A DNA stretch of 32,912 nucleotides from Bacteroidales bacterium (GTDB lineage: Bacteria; Bacteroidota; Bacteroidia; Bacteroidales; JAIPAP01), in the NCBI GenBank assembly GCA_021740045.1, contig JAIPAP010000046.1, forward strand, positions 1-32,912, in the 5' to 3' direction. A program made the translations under genes and the position numbers. Below the pieces are notes generated by a model. It was not told where the DNA came from and did not search any database. It saw only the letters and a program-made list of their open reading frames with translations. Shown here one piece after another: positions 22,389-32,190 of the stretch. Within the stretch, counting starts at the first letter, position 1, and every line of letters begins with the position of its first letter.

Positions 22389-22797
22389 ATGTAGAAGCTT
22401 TACGTTCTGTTTAACCTGTGACTGGGTGCATGGAGCTTGGCGTAAAAAAGGTTCTATGTTTTAAATGCGGAAAATTTGAAAATCAAAGATTTCTGTTTTT
22501 TCAGCATTCTGAGTCGCACGGGTTCCAAACACCTTGCACCATGCACCATGCTCCATGCTCCATGCTCCATGCTCCATGCAAAATACAAGTGCTTCTTCGT
22601 ATATAAACCATAAAATCGGTCAAAGAATTAATAATCATAACATCTTAATCAAACTAAATATCAACACACATCATTCTAATTATCAGTTATTTGACCGAAA
22701 CCTCATTATTTTTTGGAAAACTAATGATTGCCATTCTGTTAGATTTTCGCTTAATTCGCTCTGATTTTGAAAATTACTAACTTTAAAACGAGCAAAT
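22389..22797. other. gene-free gap between rsmG and the OPT transporter
   Basis: This 409-bp stretch holds two isolated GCATGGA-type heptamers (22428-22441), the heptamer array at 22531-22579, and then AT-rich DNA up to a possible TAACTTTA box at 22778-22785 before the transporter. No coding frame was convincing. Confidence 0.6.
22531..22579. repeat. tandem heptamer array, WCCATGC type (7 units)
   Basis: Seven 7-bp units in order: one ACCTTGC, two ACCATGC, four identical TCCATGC. The identical copies suggest recent expansion. Reverse-complement units (GCATGGN) occur at 26515 and 27761. Confidence 0.85.
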
Positions 22798-24849
22798 ATG
22801 TCAGATCAGAAGAACTTTGTACCATTTGTCTCCTCTGAAACGCGAATGACCGAGTTCACGGTAAGGGGATTGATCATCGGATTGATCCTGGCCGTAATTC
22901 TCGGTGCTGCTAATGCGTATTTGGGGCTTAAGGCGGGTATGACCATCGCAGCAACCTATCCGGCTGCTGTTATCGGTATGGCTATACTCAGAGCGTTAAA
23001 GGGAACCATACTCGAAGAGAACTTTACCCGTACAGTCGGATCGATAGGTGAATCGGTTGCTGCCGGAGCCATTTTCACGCTTCCGGCATTTTACATTTCG
23101 GGCATCTGGGATCCGTTTTATACGCCAGGTAATTACATCATCTCTGCACTTATCATGCTTACCGGTGGTGTTTTGGGAATTATGTTCGTAGCCTTGCTGC
23201 GCAGGGTGATGGTAAATGATGCCGAACTTCCGTTCCCCGAGTCGGTTGCTGCATCGGAGATCCATAAAACCGGGCAAACCGGTGGCGGTTCCAAGTACTT
23301 GTTCTGGGCTATGGGCCTTGGCGGTTTGATCAAGACCATGGGCGAATTCCGCATCTTTCTGCCCGTTTGGAACAAATTCGTTGCCTTCAAAACACAGTTT
23401 ATCACCGGCGCCGGGGAAGCCATTAAAGCCAAAGGCGGCATCCTGCTTGGAAGCCCCGGCTTGAAACCGGCTTATATCGGTGTGGGTTACATTATCGGAC
23501 CTAAATTGGCTTCTCTCAACTTTAGCGGTGGGGTTATCGCCTGGGGGCTGCTTACCCCGCTTATTCTTTATTTCATTGGCGATTCCATCGATTTGAATGC
23601 CTGGGCCGAATACCTGGTTGCCCAAAACCTGGCCACCGACATGAACGAAGCCATGAGCAGGGTTCAGGACCCGGTTTTCCAAATCCGCGAGGTATGGAAA
23701 ACTATTGTAAGGCCAATCGCTATTGGTGGTATGTTGGTGGGTACCGCATGGACCCTTTGGGGCATGCGTAAAAGCTTGGCTCAGGGCATTTCACGCTCCG
23801 TTCAGGACCTGAAGGAATCGGCTAAAGGCACATCAACCACCAAGCGTACCGAAAAAGACATCAGCTTCCTTTGGATTATGATAGGAATTGTTGCGGCCGG
23901 TGTGGCTACTTACCTGATTGCTCACTTCATTTTTGGCGCCAATTTCATTACAGCCCTGGTTGCCTCGGCGGTAATGGTGGTATTCGGATTTTTCTTTGCC
24001 GCTGTTTCCGGTTATTTGGTGGGTATTGTCGGTTCGAGTAACAACCCCATTTCCGGTTTAACGATTTCAACGGTTGTTGTAACTGCATTATTAATGTTGA
24101 TCCTTGGTGCGCGTGGTGAAAGCGGTATTGCTTCCACCCTGGCAGTTGCTGCCATTGTTTGTGTATCGGCAGCGGTTGCCGGTGAGATGCTGCAAGACCT
24201 GAAAGCCGGTCACCTCCTCGGCGGTACGCCCTGGAAAATGCAGATCGGTGACATCATAGGTGTGATTGCGGCTGCTGCCGTACTTTTCATTCCCTTGTTC
24301 ATCCTGCACGAAGGCGACATCGCCGTGGGCTTACGCGACGGTTATGAAGGTGGATTCGGTAGTAAAGAATTGCCTGCACCGCAGGCCAGCCTGATGGCTA
24401 TTCTTTCACAAGGAATTATTGGTGGTAAAATGGCCTGGCCACTTATTATTACCGGTATGCTGATGGGCGTTGGCTTCATCCTGATGCAGGTGAAAAGCCC
24501 CATGCTCGTTTCCATTGGTATGTACCTGCCCCTCCAAACCACCTTTGCCATTTTTATAGGTGGTATCATCAAAGGAATTCTCGATATTTATAAGGATAAA
24601 GGCAAGTTTAGCGAAAAACGGAAGGAGAAGGTCAACAACATTGGAATATTGCTGGCTTCCGGTTTAATTGCCGGTGAAGCCCTTATCGGGCTGCTCTTTG
24701 CCGGACTGGCATTTGGCGAGGTCGACTGGTTCCGCCTCGACAACCCGTCATTCATCACAAGCATTGTGATCTTTGTGATCATCGGTATTATCTTGGTTCG
24801 TATACCCTTAAAGCAATCGGCTAAGGTTAAAGAAGAAGATCTACAATAA
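22798..24849 (+). CDS. OPT-family oligopeptide transporter
   Basis: The 683-residue polytopic membrane protein begins TEFTVRGLIIGLILAVILGAANAYLGLKAGMTIAATYPAAVIGMAIL, the typical start of bacterial OPT transporters. Other family segments are ELPFPESVAASEIHKTG, SSNNPISGLTIS and MGVGFILMQVKSPMLVSIGMYLPLQTTFAIFIGG. About 14-16 helices are expected. Members move oligopeptides or metal chelates across the inner membrane, and the substrate here cannot be told from sequence. It is flanked by a strong terminator at 24874. The start fits a TAACTTTA near-match to the -7 box 12 bp upstream. Confidence 0.93.
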   Translation: MSDQKNFVPFVSSETRMTEFTVRGLIIGLILAVILGAANAYLGLKAGMTIAATYPAAVIGMAILRALKGTILEENFTRTVGSIGESVAAGAIFTLPAFYISGIWDPFYTPGNYIISALIMLTGGVLGIMFVALLRRVMVNDAELPFPESVAASEIHKTGQTGGGSKYLFWAMGLGGLIKTMGEFRIFLPVWNKFVAFKTQFITGAGEAIKAKGGILLGSPGLKPAYIGVGYIIGPKLASLNFSGGVIAWGLLTPLILYFIGDSIDLNAWAEYLVAQNLATDMNEAMSRVQDPVFQIREVWKTIVRPIAIGGMLVGTAWTLWGMRKSLAQGISRSVQDLKESAKGTSTTKRTEKDISFLWIMIGIVAAGVATYLIAHFIFGANFITALVASAVMVVFGFFFAAVSGYLVGIVGSSNNPISGLTISTVVVTALLMLILGARGESGIASTLAVAAIVCVSAAVAGEMLQDLKAGHLLGGTPWKMQIGDIIGVIAAAAVLFIPLFILHEGDIAVGLRDGYEGGFGSKELPAPQASLMAILSQGIIGGKMAWPLIITGMLMGVGFILMQVKSPMLVSIGMYLPLQTTFAIFIGGIIKGILDIYKDKGKFSEKRKEKVNNIGILLASGLIAGEALIGLLFAGLAFGEVDWFRLDNPSFITSIVIFVIIGIILVRIPLKQSAKVKEEDLQ

Positions 24850-24873: not shown

Positions 24874-24904
24874 AAAAAGGGCGCTGTATTGCAGCGCCCT
24901 TTTT
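24874..24904 (+). terminator. strong Rho-independent terminator of the OPT gene
   Basis: A perfect 13-bp stem including AGGGCGCTG / CAGCGCCCT with loop TATTG is followed by T-rich sequence, 25 bp after the stop codon. The A-run on the left and T-run on the right would let it work in both directions. Confidence 0.92.
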
Positions 24905-24905
24905 C

Positions 24906-24945
24906 GTTAATTGGTTTATTTGTTAATTTGTTAATTCGTAAAATT
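24906..24945. repeat. tandem octamer array, five units
   Basis: Units GTTAATTG, GTTTATTT, GTTAATTT, GTTAATTC, GTAAAATT. The reverse complement gives CAATTAAC-like units, the same family as the array at 25977 but inverted. Confidence 0.65.
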
Positions 24946-25032
24946 GGTGCCCGGGAAACATACCAGGAATCACTATTGTCCGGGAAAAAGGCATTAACAC
25001 AGAGATTCCCTTCCTGCCCGGCAGACAAGCTC

Positions 25033-25976: not shown

Positions 25977-26072
25977 TTAACCAATTAACCATTCAACCAA
26001 TCAACTAATTAACCAATAAACCAATCAACCATTCAGCCTTTCACCCATTCAATCAATCATCCAATCAACCAA
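25977..26072. repeat. tandem octamer array, 12 units, upstream of the PqqD-like gene
   Basis: Twelve contiguous 8-bp units, consensus TYAACCAA (in another phase CAATYAAC), diverged but in register, 96 bp in total. It ends 22 bp before the TATTTTTG box at 26095. Confidence 0.85.
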
Positions 26073-26094
26073 TCCCCATCTGCCCAAAATCCCT

Positions 26095-26102
26095 TATTTT
26101 TG
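26095..26102 (+). promoter_or_regulatory. -7 box (TATTTTTG) of the PqqD-like gene
   Basis: A full TAnnTTTG match, 19 bp before the ATG at 26122. It is part of an 18-bp string shared exactly with the promoter at 10054-10071. Confidence 0.6.
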
Positions 26103-26121: not shown

Positions 26122-26505
26122 ATGCCCATGGGAAAAAATATATTTCAACGGCGACGCATGCTGAAAAAGGCCAACACTCTAGAACTAACACCTGTCAAGA
26201 ACCATGACCATCAGGTGGAAGAAGACGGGAGGCTGGCTTTGATCGTGCCGAAATTTGAAAAAAAGTGGATGCGGCGCTTTTTTATCGCGCCTGCCCGTAA
26301 AGATTATTTCAAGATCTACCTGGATGACCTCGGTGCTTCAACCTGGCTGTTGATCGATGGCAAGAAAACCGTTAAGCAGATATGTGAAGCTATGCAGGAA
26401 CAAAAGGAAGAAGAAATTCCCGAACTCGAGGATCGCGTTTCCAAATTCATTCATATGCTGTATGAGCAGCGGTATGTGTTAATTAAGGAGATGGAAGAGG
26501 CGTAG
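26122..26505 (+). CDS. PqqD-family protein
   Basis: The 127-residue protein has a basic N-terminus (QRRRMLKKA) and residues about 50-122 of PqqD type (DDLGASTWLLIDGKKTVKQICEAM, then EDRVSKFIHMLYEQRYV). PqqD-like domains present peptides to radical SAM enzymes in RiPP pathways, but no radical SAM enzyme or precursor peptide is seen here. In Bacteroidota, stand-alone PqqD-like proteins of this length are common and of unknown role. ATG at 26122 and at 26128 are both possible starts. It is preceded by an octamer array and followed, 9 bp after the stop, by a heptamer array. Confidence 0.82.
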   Translation: MPMGKNIFQRRRMLKKANTLELTPVKNHDHQVEEDGRLALIVPKFEKKWMRRFFIAPARKDYFKIYLDDLGASTWLLIDGKKTVKQICEAMQEQKEEEIPELEDRVSKFIHMLYEQRYVLIKEMEEA

Positions 26506-27846: not shown

Positions 27847-30051
27847 TTATTTAACTACTATTTTACCAACATTCCCTTCAACCACTTTGCCAATGCACGC
27901 CGCTTCAATGCCCGCTTCATGCATTTGCTGTATGATATTTTTCTCTTCTGATGCAGGAATCGAAATCAGTAGTCCTCCCGAAGTCTGCGCATCGCAAAGA
28001 AGCAGTTGATCCGTGTTGCTTACTGATGGATCCCACTCTACCACTTTTTTCACAAACTCCCGGTTATTCACCGTTCCACCGGGAACAATTCCGGATTGGG
28101 CAAATTCAATGGCTTCGGGTATGATAGGAATATCCTTATAACTGATTTGGATTTCCAACTTATTATTTCCAAGCATTTCTTTTAAATGTCCCATAAGTCC
28201 AAAGCCGGTTACATCGGTGCAGGCATTCACCGGAAATGCAAGCATGACTTCAGCAGCTTTCTTGTTAAGCTCAGCCATAATGCGCATTGCAAGTTCAGCG
28301 GTTTCTTTGGAAGCTATTCCCCTTTTAACTGCGGTAGCGATAATGCCCAATCCTATTGGCTTGGTAAGGATCAGTAGGTCGCCTGCTTTGATATTGTTAT
28401 TGGAAAGTACCTTACCGGGATGAACCGTGCCGGTGATCACCATACCAAACTTGGGTTCGGTATCTTCCACGGTATGGCCGCCCAACACATATATTCCGGC
28501 TTCTTCCGCTTTGTCGCTTGCGCCTTTCAGGATTTGTTCCAATGCTTCCAATGGAAGCCTTTTAGGTGGAAAACCAACGATATTCAAGCCAAACAAGGGC
28601 TTGGCGCCCATCGCATATACATCACTAAGGGCATTGGCTGCAGCCACTTGCCCAAAAGCATACGGATCGTCCACCACCGGCGTGAAGAAATCCAGGGTTT
28701 GCACCAAGGCGGTTTCTTCATTGATCTTAAACACAGCTGCATCATCAGCGGTATTGCTGCCCATCAATATTTGTGGATCGGTAGGTATGGGCAGGTCCTT
28801 AAGCACTTGTTCCAAATCCTGTGGACGAAGTTTACAGGCACATCCCAAACCGTGGGTGTAATGCGTTAACTTGATCTCCTTGCCGGTTCCCGGCTCAGCT
28901 TTACCAGCTTTTTCCGTATCAGGCTGAAGCCGTTCCACAGTGGAAGCGATTATTTCCACTGCCCGGTGGATCTGAGTCATATCATTGAGCTTACCCACCG
29001 AAAAACGTACAGTTCCCATGGCATACTGTATCGGTAGTTGCATAGCCTGCAAAACAGGCGAAACATCCACATCGCCGGTATGGCAAGCTGCACCTGCCGA
29101 AGCAGCAATTTCCTCCATCTCATCCAACAGGGTATTGGCTTCTATGCCGGGAAAGCTGATATTGGACGTATTGGGCAGGCGCTTTTCAGGATGACCGTTC
29201 ACCCTAATTTCTCCTAATCTCTTTGCCAATCCTGATTCCAGCGCATCGCGCATCTTTTGGTATCCCTGAACATTACTCTCCAGATCGCGGCGGGCTATTT
29301 CACAGGCTTTTCCAAAACCCACTATCTCTAATACATTCTCTGTGCCGGCCCGGCGGTTTTGCTCGTGATCGGCACCATGGATCAATTTTTCCAATTGGAT
29401 CCCTTGTTTCACATAAAGGGCGCCTATTCCCTTGGGAGCATAGAGTTTATGTCCTGCTAATGAAAACAGGTCTACCCCCAACTCCTGTACATCGGTTTTG
29501 ATCTTAGCTGCAGATTGGGCACCATCGGAATGAAAGACAATGCCGTGTTTATGAGCTATTGCAGCCAATTCACCAATAGGTTGGATGGTGCCCACTTCAT
29601 TATTGACATGCATAATGGAAACCAGGATGGTGGCCGGCTTGATCGCTTTTTCCAAATCTTGAGGATTGACCATACCAGATTCATCCACCGCCAACCAGGT
29701 CATCTCAAAGCCTTGCTTTTCCAGATATTTGCATACCTCCGATACGGCCGGATGTTCTATTGAGGAGGTGATAATATGGTTTCCCTCATGCCTGCGGGCA
29801 TAGGCAAGCCCTTTAATGGCATAATTGTTTGCTTCGCTTCCTCCGCTGGTGAAAACCACTTCTTCGGGGCGGCAATTGAGTAATTGAGCTACCTTCCTGC
29901 GAGCTTCCTCGATGGCTTTTTTTGTTTCCATTCCATAGCGATGCGAACTGGAGGGGTTGCCAAAATAATCCTTCAAAAAAGGACGCATAAATTCGGCCAC
30001 TTCCGGAAGCACCGGCGTAGTGGCATTATGATCGAGATAAATGGGATTCAT
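27847..30051 (-). CDS. selenocysteine lyase/cysteine desulfurase-SelD fusion
   Basis: The 734-residue protein is a fusion of two enzymes. Residues 1-375 form a PLP-dependent NifS/SCLY-type desulfurase: PLP lysine K202 in GHKLYAPKG, H100 in IEHPAVSEV, catalytic C323 in SAGAACHTG. The GAACH context resembles eukaryotic selenocysteine lyase more than the SSGSAC of classic NifS, as I recall. A linker at about 376-392 leads to selenophosphate synthase: HGLGCACKL with C404, C406 and K407 (equivalent to E. coli C17, C19, K20), then TLDFFTPVVDDPYAFG and TDVTGFGLMGH. The key residue is Cys, not selenocysteine. The product could release selenium and activate it as selenophosphate within one chain. It starts 3 bp after mnmH. 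Fusions of this kind have been reported elsewhere. Confidence 0.93.
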   Translation of the reverse strand: MNPIYLDHNATTPVLPEVAEFMRPFLKDYFGNPSSSHRYGMETKKAIEEARRKVAQLLNCRPEEVVFTSGGSEANNYAIKGLAYARRHEGNHIITSSIEHPAVSEVCKYLEKQGFEMTWLAVDESGMVNPQDLEKAIKPATILVSIMHVNNEVGTIQPIGELAAIAHKHGIVFHSDGAQSAAKIKTDVQELGVDLFSLAGHKLYAPKGIGALYVKQGIQLEKLIHGADHEQNRRAGTENVLEIVGFGKACEIARRDLESNVQGYQKMRDALESGLAKRLGEIRVNGHPEKRLPNTSNISFPGIEANTLLDEMEEIAASAGAACHTGDVDVSPVLQAMQLPIQYAMGTVRFSVGKLNDMTQIHRAVEIIASTVERLQPDTEKAGKAEPGTGKEIKLTHYTHGLGCACKLRPQDLEQVLKDLPIPTDPQILMGSNTADDAAVFKINEETALVQTLDFFTPVVDDPYAFGQVAAANALSDVYAMGAKPLFGLNIVGFPPKRLPLEALEQILKGASDKAEEAGIYVLGGHTVEDTEPKFGMVITGTVHPGKVLSNNNIKAGDLLILTKPIGLGIIATAVKRGIASKETAELAMRIMAELNKKAAEVMLAFPVNACTDVTGFGLMGHLKEMLGNNKLEIQISYKDIPIIPEAIEFAQSGIVPGGTVNNREFVKKVVEWDPSVSNTDQLLLCDAQTSGGLLISIPASEEKNIIQQMHEAGIEAACIGKVVEGNVGKIVVK

Positions 30052-30054
30052 AGC

Positions 30055-31110
30055 TTAATGAATTGCAGGGTTAGAAAATGAAGCGTGAATGTTCGTGGCA
30101 AACTCAACTACCTTCCTGGCATTGGCAACCGGGTCATCCGACGGCAATTTCAGCGGAAACACCGTATTATCCATCCGTTTCGAGAGTCCGTAATTATAGG
30201 CTTTGTCGTAATAATCAAGCGTTAGATCGGCAACAAGCGCGTAATCTTCTTTTTCAATGGCTTCGAGCGAGCGTTTTGTGTTCAATCCGCCCAGCCGCTT
30301 AGTGATGCGGTTAACCGCATTTCTCAACAATTGCTTATCGCAACCGGCATATTCTTTCACCAAGCGCTGTATACGAAGCTCTTTGGGCATTTCAATCTTT
30401 ATGACCGGACTTTGGCGCATTTGCGTATATATGGGCTCAGGAATATTCACCGTTCCAATTCCCCGGCTTTCATCTTCAAGCCAAAGGGTTTTTTCTTTAT
30501 CGATTTGCTTCCAAAAAGGAAACAGGTCATTTTCAAATTGCTCAGAGGTAGGTTGTGGCTTTTGCCCAATAGACCCAAATGAAGAACCTTTATGATGAGC
30601 CAGTCCTTCCAGGTCGATAACCTGTTCCCCTTGTTTTTCAATTTCCTTCAGGATATCGGTTTTACCGCTTCCGGTCATACCGCCTAAAATAACAATTCCA
30701 GCAGGCCTGCGAAAACACTCCCTGATGTAGCGGCGATAAGCCTTATAGCCCCCATTTAATGTGGCCACCGTAAATCCGGAAGTATCCAGCAACCAGGCCA
30801 GACTTCCGCTGCGCATACCGCCACGCCAGCAATGCATCAGCACCTCGTGATGCGGTGCGATTTTCCGGGCTTCTTTAACATACCAGCTCAGCTTCGGCCC
30901 CACCAGATCCAAACCTACCATGATAGCAGCTTCGCGACCGGCTTGTTTATAGCGGGTACCAACCTGTGCCCTTTCCTCATCGGTAAACAGAGGCATGCTG
31001 TGCGCTCCCGGAATGTGGCCGGCTGCAAATTCTCTTGGCGCCCGCACATCGATTACCGGGATGTATTTAGCCCGTTCCAAAAAGTCCGATGGATCGTATT
31101 GGTGAATCAT
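30055..31110 (-). CDS. mnmH: tRNA 2-selenouridine synthase
   Basis: The 351-residue protein uses selenophosphate to turn 2-thiouridine at the tRNA wobble position into 2-selenouridine. An N-terminal rhodanese domain carries C94 in LMHCWRGGMRSGSLAWLL. A C-terminal P-loop domain starts GIVILGGMTGSGKTDIL (Walker A about 144-151). I place the start at ATG 31110 (MIHQYDPSDF), because the longer frame to 31272 would translate through an octamer repeat array and a promoter box. The TAnnTTTG box at 31120-31127 leaves a leader of only a few bases. It is cotranscribed with the desulfurase-SelD fusion, which supplies the substrate. Confidence 0.95.
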   Translation of the reverse strand: MIHQYDPSDFLERAKYIPVIDVRAPREFAAGHIPGAHSMPLFTDEERAQVGTRYKQAGREAAIMVGLDLVGPKLSWYVKEARKIAPHHEVLMHCWRGGMRSGSLAWLLDTSGFTVATLNGGYKAYRRYIRECFRRPAGIVILGGMTGSGKTDILKEIEKQGEQVIDLEGLAHHKGSSFGSIGQKPQPTSEQFENDLFPFWKQIDKEKTLWLEDESRGIGTVNIPEPIYTQMRQSPVIKIEMPKELRIQRLVKEYAGCDKQLLRNAVNRITKRLGGLNTKRSLEAIEKEDYALVADLTLDYYDKAYNYGLSKRMDNTVFPLKLPSDDPVANARKVVEFATNIHASFSNPAIH

Positions 31111-31119
31111 AATCAGGTA

Positions 31120-31127
31120 CAAAGGTA
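31120..31127 (-). promoter_or_regulatory. -7 box (TACCTTTG) of mnmH
   Basis: A full TAnnTTTG match on the minus strand, 9 bp before the mnmH ATG. It is followed upstream by 21 bp and then the 12-unit octamer array. Confidence 0.55.
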
Positions 31128-31148
31128 CGATTTGTTGAGAGAATGGGC

Positions 31149-31244
31149 TGAAGGAATGATGGATTGATGGACTGATTGACTGATGGGTTGAAGGATTGAT
31201 GGGCTGAAGAACTGTGGTACTGTGAGACTGATGGAATGAAGGGT
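31149..31244. repeat. tandem octamer array, 12 units, upstream of mnmH
   Basis: Twelve 8-bp units, plus-strand consensus TGATGGAY. On the mnmH coding strand this reads WTCARYCM, the same family as the array at 25977. It is 96 bp long in both places. Confidence 0.82.
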
Positions 31245-31365
31245 TGAGCTTATATGGAGCAAGCTGAGGCAACTTATCATTGGAACCTCTATTTAAATAT
31301 CTTAAAATTAATATTAATTAGCCGGACAGTTGGTGAAAGTGAATAATGTTTTCATCAAATTTGCT

Positions 31366-31373
31366 TACCTTTA
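31366..31373 (+). promoter_or_regulatory. near-match -7 box (TACCTTTA)
   Basis: It differs from TAnnTTTG only at the last base and lies 5 bp before the ATG at 31379. If used, the transcript would be nearly leaderless. Confidence 0.35.
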
Positions 31374-31378
31374 CCCCT

Positions 31379-31825
31379 ATGGAACAAGATATCAGATGGG
31401 AACAACGCTTATCAAATTTTAAGAAAGCCCTGCATAAGCTGGAAAAGGCCGTTGAGATCATTCACCGGAATCAACAGGGATATTCCGCCGGGGAAGATGA
31501 AGAATCGATTGAAGAAGTTATACGAGAAGGCCTTATTCAACGTTTTGAGTATACGCATGAACTGGCCTGGAATGTGATGAAAGACTATGCTGAATATCAG
31601 GGTAATTATCACATCAAAGGCTCAAGAGATGCCACCCGGCTGGCTTTTAAAATGGGGTTGATCGCCGATGGTGAAATTTGGATGGATATGCTGAAGAGCA
31701 GAAATGAAACCTCCCATACCTATAACGAAGAAATTGCAAAGGAAATCTATGACAAAGTGATAGAGAAATACCTGCCTCTTTTTGAAGAATTTGACCTTGT
31801 TATGGAAAAACTCAAATCAAAATAA
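31379..31825 (+). CDS. nucleotidyltransferase substrate-binding protein, HI0074 family
   Basis: The 148-residue helical protein begins MEQDIRWEQRLSNFKKALHKLEKAV, the usual start of the HI0074 family, and continues with RFEYTHELAWNVMKDYAEYQG and RNETSHTYNEEIAKEIYDKV. It pairs with the small MNT-type nucleotidyltransferase 26 bp downstream, as in Haemophilus HI0074/HI0073. Such pairs are related in layout to HepT/MntA toxin-antitoxin systems. I prefer ATG 31379 to the upstream in-frame ATG at 31346, because the upstream one would precede the promoter-like box and is not conserved in what I recall of the family. Confidence 0.93.
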   Translation: MEQDIRWEQRLSNFKKALHKLEKAVEIIHRNQQGYSAGEDEESIEEVIREGLIQRFEYTHELAWNVMKDYAEYQGNYHIKGSRDATRLAFKMGLIADGEIWMDMLKSRNETSHTYNEEIAKEIYDKVIEKYLPLFEEFDLVMEKLKSK

Positions 31826-31851
31826 AACGATGATCTATTTAAGTAATTAGA

Positions 31852-32190
31852 ATGAAATTTGGCCTGAAAGAAAATACCCTGAAAGAAATCATCAAGGTGA
31901 TTGAAAAGTACCCTGAGGTAGAAGAAGCCATTTTATATGGTTCCAGGGCAAAAGGCACGCAAAAAAAAGCTTCTGATATAGATATTACCCTGAAAGGCGA
32001 AAAACTAACCCTGAGCATTAAGAATAAAATTGATACGGAACTGGATGACTTGCTGCTACCTTATATGTTTGATCTTTCACTATATCACCACATTAATAAC
32101 CCCGAACTCATTGAACATATCAATAGAGCCGGTATAACTCTCCATTGTCGTAAAACAAACACCGGCGTTAAATCCCATACACGGGAATAG
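31852..32190 (+). CDS. MNT-type minimal nucleotidyltransferase (HI0073-like)
   Basis: The 112-residue protein has the pol-beta-type motif ILYGSRAKGTQKKASDIDI (G30, S31, D42, D44) and a third probable metal ligand D74 in YMFDLSLY. It likely transfers a nucleotide or NMP group to an unknown target with the help of the HI0074-like partner 26 bp upstream. The active-site residues are intact. It may act as the antitoxin-type enzyme of a HepT/MntA-like system, but the partner is of the HI0074 type, so a toxin role is only inference. Confidence 0.92.
   Translation: MKFGLKENTLKEIIKVIEKYPEVEEAILYGSRAKGTQKKASDIDITLKGEKLTLSIKNKIDTELDDLLLPYMFDLSLYHHINNPELIEHINRAGITLHCRKTNTGVKSHTRE

Follow-up and report, generated by a model that had tools for sequence, protein, structure and literature searches.

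Arrays of the heptamer TAACTGA are found in Beggiatoaceae, Cyanobacteria and some Bacteroidetes, and the class of 5-11 nt repeats to which they belong (LSSRs) has been reviewed (PMC4679880). In Flavobacterium johnsoniae, transcription starts 4-5 nts past the −7 box, whose consensus for the Bacteroidota primary sigma factor is TAnnTTTG (PMC6847099). Elsewhere in the Bacteroidota, as well, the −33 element is weak. Short leaders are known in the phylum, as a minority: leaders of less than 10 nts account for 3.7% in Bacteroides thetaiotaomicron, and leaderless messages for 5.5% in Flavobacterium psychrophilum. Sites of Rho loading (rut sites) are C-rich, G-poor, unstructured and 70-80 nts long. 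Classical Rho terminators sit just past the stop codon of the gene being ended.

The window, meaning the whole stretch of DNA analyzed, is a 32,912-nt contig of a Bacteroidales bacterium (JAIPAP010000046.1). An array of octamers within it, 5′ of mnmH, is a real period-8 repeat and a member of a class present at many loci genome-wide. The direction in which arrays of this class face, toward genes, is a more unusual fact than the spacing between array and promoter box that first drew attention to the locus. No description of octamer arrays with such polarity was found in the literature searched, the coverage of which was partial.

The array, promoter and start codon of mnmH

The gene mnmH, for tRNA 2-selenouridine synthase (351 aa), is on the minus strand at 30055-31110, with its ATG start at 31110. 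The array 5′ of it, on the same strand at 31149-31244, has 12 units of 8 bp (96 bp), and its C-rich, G-poor strand (39% C, 6% G) is the mnmH sense strand. Lag-8 identity is 0.69, whereas 5000 dinucleotide shuffles average 0.30 and reach 0.55 at most, and a sub-period of 4 is visible (0.45). The repeat is clear in the eight gene-proximal units (31149-31212; lag-8 identity 0.73) and weak in the four degenerate distal ones (31213-31244; 0.62, reached by 5 of the 5000 shuffles). From the array end to TACCTTTG at 31127-31120 is 21 bp (20 by the end that TRF assigns), and this spacer, 31128-31148, would span about −13 to −33 of a promoter. A further 9 bp (31111-31119) separate TACCTTTG from the ATG.

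Directly downstream of mnmH, at 27847-30051 on the minus strand, a single ORF of 734 aa combines a NifS/IscS-type cysteine desulfurase with selenide water dikinase (SelD); mnmH and this ORF are a compact selenouridine pathway. Divergent from mnmH across the array, at 31346-32190 on the plus strand, are an HI0074-type substrate-binding subunit and an MntA-like nucleotidyltransferase (a HepT/MntA-like pair).

TACCTTTG is of the TAnnTTTG type. Its significance was gauged with 653 sampled genes, each with at least 60 bp upstream, in which TAnnTTTG was compared with three control words. Of these, 164 have it no more than 60 bp before the start; the control words are there in 25-49. Distances from box to start are bimodal: 16 genes have 3-9 bp, no gene has 10-14, and the rest have 15 bp or more. 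Should transcription start 4-5 nts past the box, as it does in Flavobacterium, genes of the short class would be leaderless or nearly so, and the 9 bp of mnmH falls in that class, at its long edge. The mnmH genes of three other genomes of the order (G137, G015 and G027) have the box 4, 5 and 5 bp from the ATG, and in many others of the order it is at 15-33 bp. The motif and its enrichment support TACCTTTG being an ordinary Bacteroidota −7 box and a credible promoter. With two distance classes among the sampled genes, a near-leaderless mnmH mRNA is plausible; by the 4-5 nt rule transcription is predicted to start near 31115, with a leader of about 5 nts. The promoter part of the finding is ordinary.

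A longer version of mnmH can be read from a TTG at 31272, and its added segment, 31111-31272, is mostly the array translated in frame. What keeps this ORF open is the lack of a stop codon, in that frame, on the C-rich strand of the array. MnmH family models match the ATG form only from residues 12-17 onward, relatives within the order align to MnmH from residues 1-19, most with an ATG in frame at the corresponding position, and a gene caller based on codon usage puts the start at 31110. The N-terminal extension is very likely an annotation artefact, and the mnmH array should not be annotated as coding.

Much of what the first-pass annotation had claimed about mnmH itself holds up. The 96-bp, 12-unit array is confirmed, on the minus strand and with its distal four units weak; the claimed distances of 21 bp from array to box and 9 bp from box to ATG were measured as 20-21 bp and 9 bp; the very short leader fits the short distance class, its transcript start being predicted from the box; and the dismissal of a long N-terminal extension is backed by family models, alignments of relatives, the gene caller and the array-derived codons.

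A genome-wide class of octamer arrays and its polarity

There are two more arrays of the class in the window. One, of the CAAYYAAC family, is on the plus strand at 25979-26074 (96 bp, lag-8 identity 0.78), upstream of a PqqD-like gene and with its C-rich strand in the sense direction. The box TATTTTTG at 26095-26102 on the plus strand is 20 bp past it and 19 bp before the ATG at 26122. The other, at 24903-24948 on the minus strand, was absent from the first-pass annotation. It comes after the gene at 22798-24849, and its C-rich strand is directed at the 3′ end of that gene, beyond the gene's hairpin and T-run.

About 1.5 Mb (1.51 Mb) of the 3.9-Mb draft genome, which is in 161 contigs, was sampled. 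Arrays were called by TRF and gathered in part by similarity to known arrays, and genes were called by a simple codon-usage script, with start positions that carry error. The sample contains 58 octamer and 50 heptamer intergenic arrays, and from contigs taken regardless of arrays about 68 octamer arrays per genome are estimated. Period 8 accounts for 40 intergenic versus 2 coding TRF rows. Unit families include CAAYYAAC, TCAATCCA, CATCCAAT and CTCAGTCT, and what they share is length and G-poverty. Searched against the DNA of the whole genome, the mnmH array hits arrays of the TCAATCCA type (at C103 and C69), the second window array hits those of the CAAYYAAC type, and neither retrieves the other at E<=10. 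The first-pass annotation had placed these two in one unit family. They do form one class (period 8, sub-period 4, C-rich, G-poor), but of different unit families.

Several other repeats were seen alongside. Intergenic arrays of 7-bp units (CTCCATG, TTCTACC, AAGTTTC and CTCCAAT types) are present at 22530-22580 of the window and about 50 places in the sampled contigs, often directly past stop codons. REP-like palindromes of the type CCTRCCTCCGGYAGGCAGG are between or beside octamer blocks, several in succession (G000 C86:14243-14411, C161:9394-9655, C155:24590 and C32:424; loci L103, L041, L179 and L093). Between some convergent genes there are inverted pairs of octamer arrays, each aimed at the nearer gene (G000 C32:236/424, C98:5792/5870, C69:19669/19742), and some arrays overlap the 3′ ends of ORFs with the octamers read as C-terminal tails (G000 C69:19669-19817, C69:23576-23717, C6:16897-17295).

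The CAAYYAAC type was counted across 149 genomes of the order, and apart from this genome just one other genus (G013 and G129) and G137 have it in abundance; a reversed-pattern control for this count is uninformative, as the motif reads identically backwards. Three species, from two families, carry arrays upstream of mnmH, and octamer arrays with other units, ATCAACAC in L248 (G283) and AATGATAT in L247 (G113), are upstream of mnmH in two further families. A scan of public genomes found only distant relatives, whose mnmH genes are without arrays. In a comparison of array sites between families, where genes flanking arrays have a relative, an array is there too in 5 of 5 cases versus 5 of 11 for other genes, numbers too small, and loci chosen with too much bias, for conservation to be claimed. 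Turnover is seen directly between the congeners G013 and G129, which are of another family than this genome. Upstream of their mnmH genes one clean 8-bp gap lies inside the array, gaps of 44 bp and 20 bp in the repeats are not whole octamers, and the box and its flanks are conserved. Such gaps are the kind of turnover that slippage gives, and slippage may well be their cause.

For polarity, each array was oriented by its C-rich strand, and the distances of its 3′ and 5′ ends to the neighbouring gene were compared. The measure was picked after the first array list, so the p value for this genome is post hoc and three relatives provide the independent test. In this genome the 3′ end of the C-rich strand is the closer in 45 of 51 arrays (p=1.8e-8); on contigs whose choice did not depend on arrays the count is 23 of 24. 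The three other genomes give 24 of 29 (p=5e-4), and the four pooled 69 of 80. Gene starts show the polarity (tandem sense 14/17) and gene ends do as well (11/12 for convergent and 18/18 for tandem antisense arrangements), so it cannot be reduced to the gene's own sense or antisense direction. Heptamer arrays have no clear polarity.

Compositional sources for this polarity were considered and rejected. Neither local GC skew (33 versus 25) nor gene-strand bias (30/28) agrees with it, and background intergenic skew, with no C-G skew before starts and only −0.03 to −0.08 after stops, is too small. The gene-ward polarity is hard to obtain from slippage alone, which suggests either that the opposite orientation is selected against or that the C-rich RNA is put to use. 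A testable rule results: in at least four genomes, arrays of 8-bp units are oriented with the G-poor strand facing whichever gene border is closest.

Promoter module, neutral repeats or Rho loading

The near-identical geometry at two genes had been taken as unlikely to be chance, with a search for other genes of the same layout proposed as one check. In principle the array, a fixed spacer of 21-22 bp and the −7 box could work together as a single promoter element, the array serving to bind an activator or to strengthen the binding of RNA polymerase, and the nearly equal spacing at two sites in one window, together with the coincidence of the array end with the upstream edge of the core promoter, speaks for this. 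The search of all 3.9 Mb for a box 14-34 bp from an array in the same orientation yielded no third site beyond the two in the window. Of 22 octamer arrays aimed at a start codon, 17 have no box in between, and in the other 5 it is at 20, 20, 61, 79 and 97 bp. When array-to-start gaps were combined at random with box-to-start distances, 0.87 sites were expected at 14-34 bp; the probability of two or more there is 0.22, of two within 1 bp of each other there 0.04, and of two that differ by no more than 1 bp at any distance to 60 bp 0.14. The spacing is not kept in relatives: in G013 and G129 the mnmH box is 17 bp from the ATG, and the octamer arrays, upstream and in the same orientation, come no closer to the box than about 100 bp. 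Moreover, the two window arrays belong to different unit families. The spacing match is weak evidence for a module. With pattern search, array list and random pairing all against it, a module was rejected as very improbable, and the matching distance is probably a coincidence.

At the other extreme, the arrays could be purely neutral and microsatellite-like, with no selected polarity. Many unrelated units alike in length only, the in-register indel, the running of some arrays into ORF ends and their sporadic spread over the order are all as would be expected of such repeats. This is nevertheless unlikely in view of a polarity of 69/80 across four genomes that composition leaves unexplained.

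The properties of the RNA bring Rho into consideration. Transcripts of the C-rich strand of the two 96-bp window arrays (39% C, 6% G and 33% C, 1% G) have a predicted folding energy of 0.0 kcal/mol, versus −10 to −15 for the opposite strand, and have YC steps every 4-8 nts. Both fit the rut description (C>G, unstructured, 70-80 nts, spaced cytosines), and a Rho gene is present in the genome. An array might then be a putative rut-like Rho-loading site facing inward, which halts read-through or antisense transcription from the intergenic side before it enters the adjacent gene. This would account for polarity at gene starts and gene ends alike, and in C-G about half of the arrays are above the 90th percentile for intergenic strands; just 22% are above the 99th, however, many arrays are shorter than 70 nts, and the majority of genomes in the order, most of them presumably encoding Rho, lack CAAYYAAC arrays. 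A simple terminator role does not fit, since the C-rich strand is near the gene ahead and not the stop codon of the gene behind. An intrinsic terminator before the array was scored in 0 of 31 cases versus 49 of 537 genes generally, a count that misses the one clear case in the window, where the T-run touches the array, and that therefore bears neither way. Taken on its own, insulation by Rho is a tentative possibility. The broader proposition, that a lineage-specific genome-wide set of polar octamers insulates genes, with unfolded C-rich RNA at each border loading Rho or another RNA-binding protein and so stopping stray sense and antisense transcription, is rather doubtful.

The account preferred, with moderate confidence, is of two independent layers that adjoin: an ordinary near-leaderless promoter, and slippage-grown arrays outside the core promoter whose polarity is under selection. 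mnmH would be transcribed from an ordinary Bacteroidota promoter with almost no leader, its −7 box being 9 bp from the ATG. The array, as one of the genome-wide octamer simple-sequence repeats, would expand and contract by slippage between genes, and it would stop at the edge of the core promoter since the promoter would not survive repeats any closer to the gene. The 3′ end of the G-poor strand is aimed at the nearer gene, be it at a gene start or a gene end, and the likeliest source of this would be selection on RNA, with only unfolded C-rich RNA tolerated, or even useful, on entering a gene. A plausible gain might be the loading of Rho and arrest of stray transcription before the gene, a component as tentative here as on its own. 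Against two independent layers is the fixed polarity, which exceeds what pure slippage predicts. That three species from two families have arrays 5′ of mnmH may point to a tie with this particular gene, and for the Rho part the position of the C-rich strand beside the next gene is unlike that in classical Rho terminators.

Comparison with described systems

The promoter component matches known Bacteroidota sigma-ABfr promoters. TACCTTTG fits TAnnTTTG (TAHHTTTG), a word that this genome has in excess at its gene starts, short leaders are known there and predicted here, and there is no categorical difference at mnmH. The likeness to rut sites, seen in the two 96-bp window arrays, is in C-rich, G-poor, unstructured RNA of about 70-100 nts with regularly spaced cytosines. 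The arrays differ from rut sites in being periodic, often shorter than 70 nts, and beside the gene ahead rather than right past the stop codon of the gene behind.

As tandem short units that are intergenic and at many loci (58 in 1.51 Mb), the octamers belong with LSSR/STRR repeats. Like these, TAACTGA included, they have units of 7-8 nts, number tens to hundreds per genome, are in scattered lineages, and frequently have a direction at start codons (PMC4679880). In-register indels between relatives, known from such repeats, have a candidate counterpart here in the single 8-bp gap between G013 and G129. However, the TAACTGA sets repeat a single invariant heptamer and for the most part directly precede start codons (PMC4679880), whereas the arrays here have 8-nt units of many families, alike in length and G-poverty, with a polarity toward the nearer gene end, whether start or stop.
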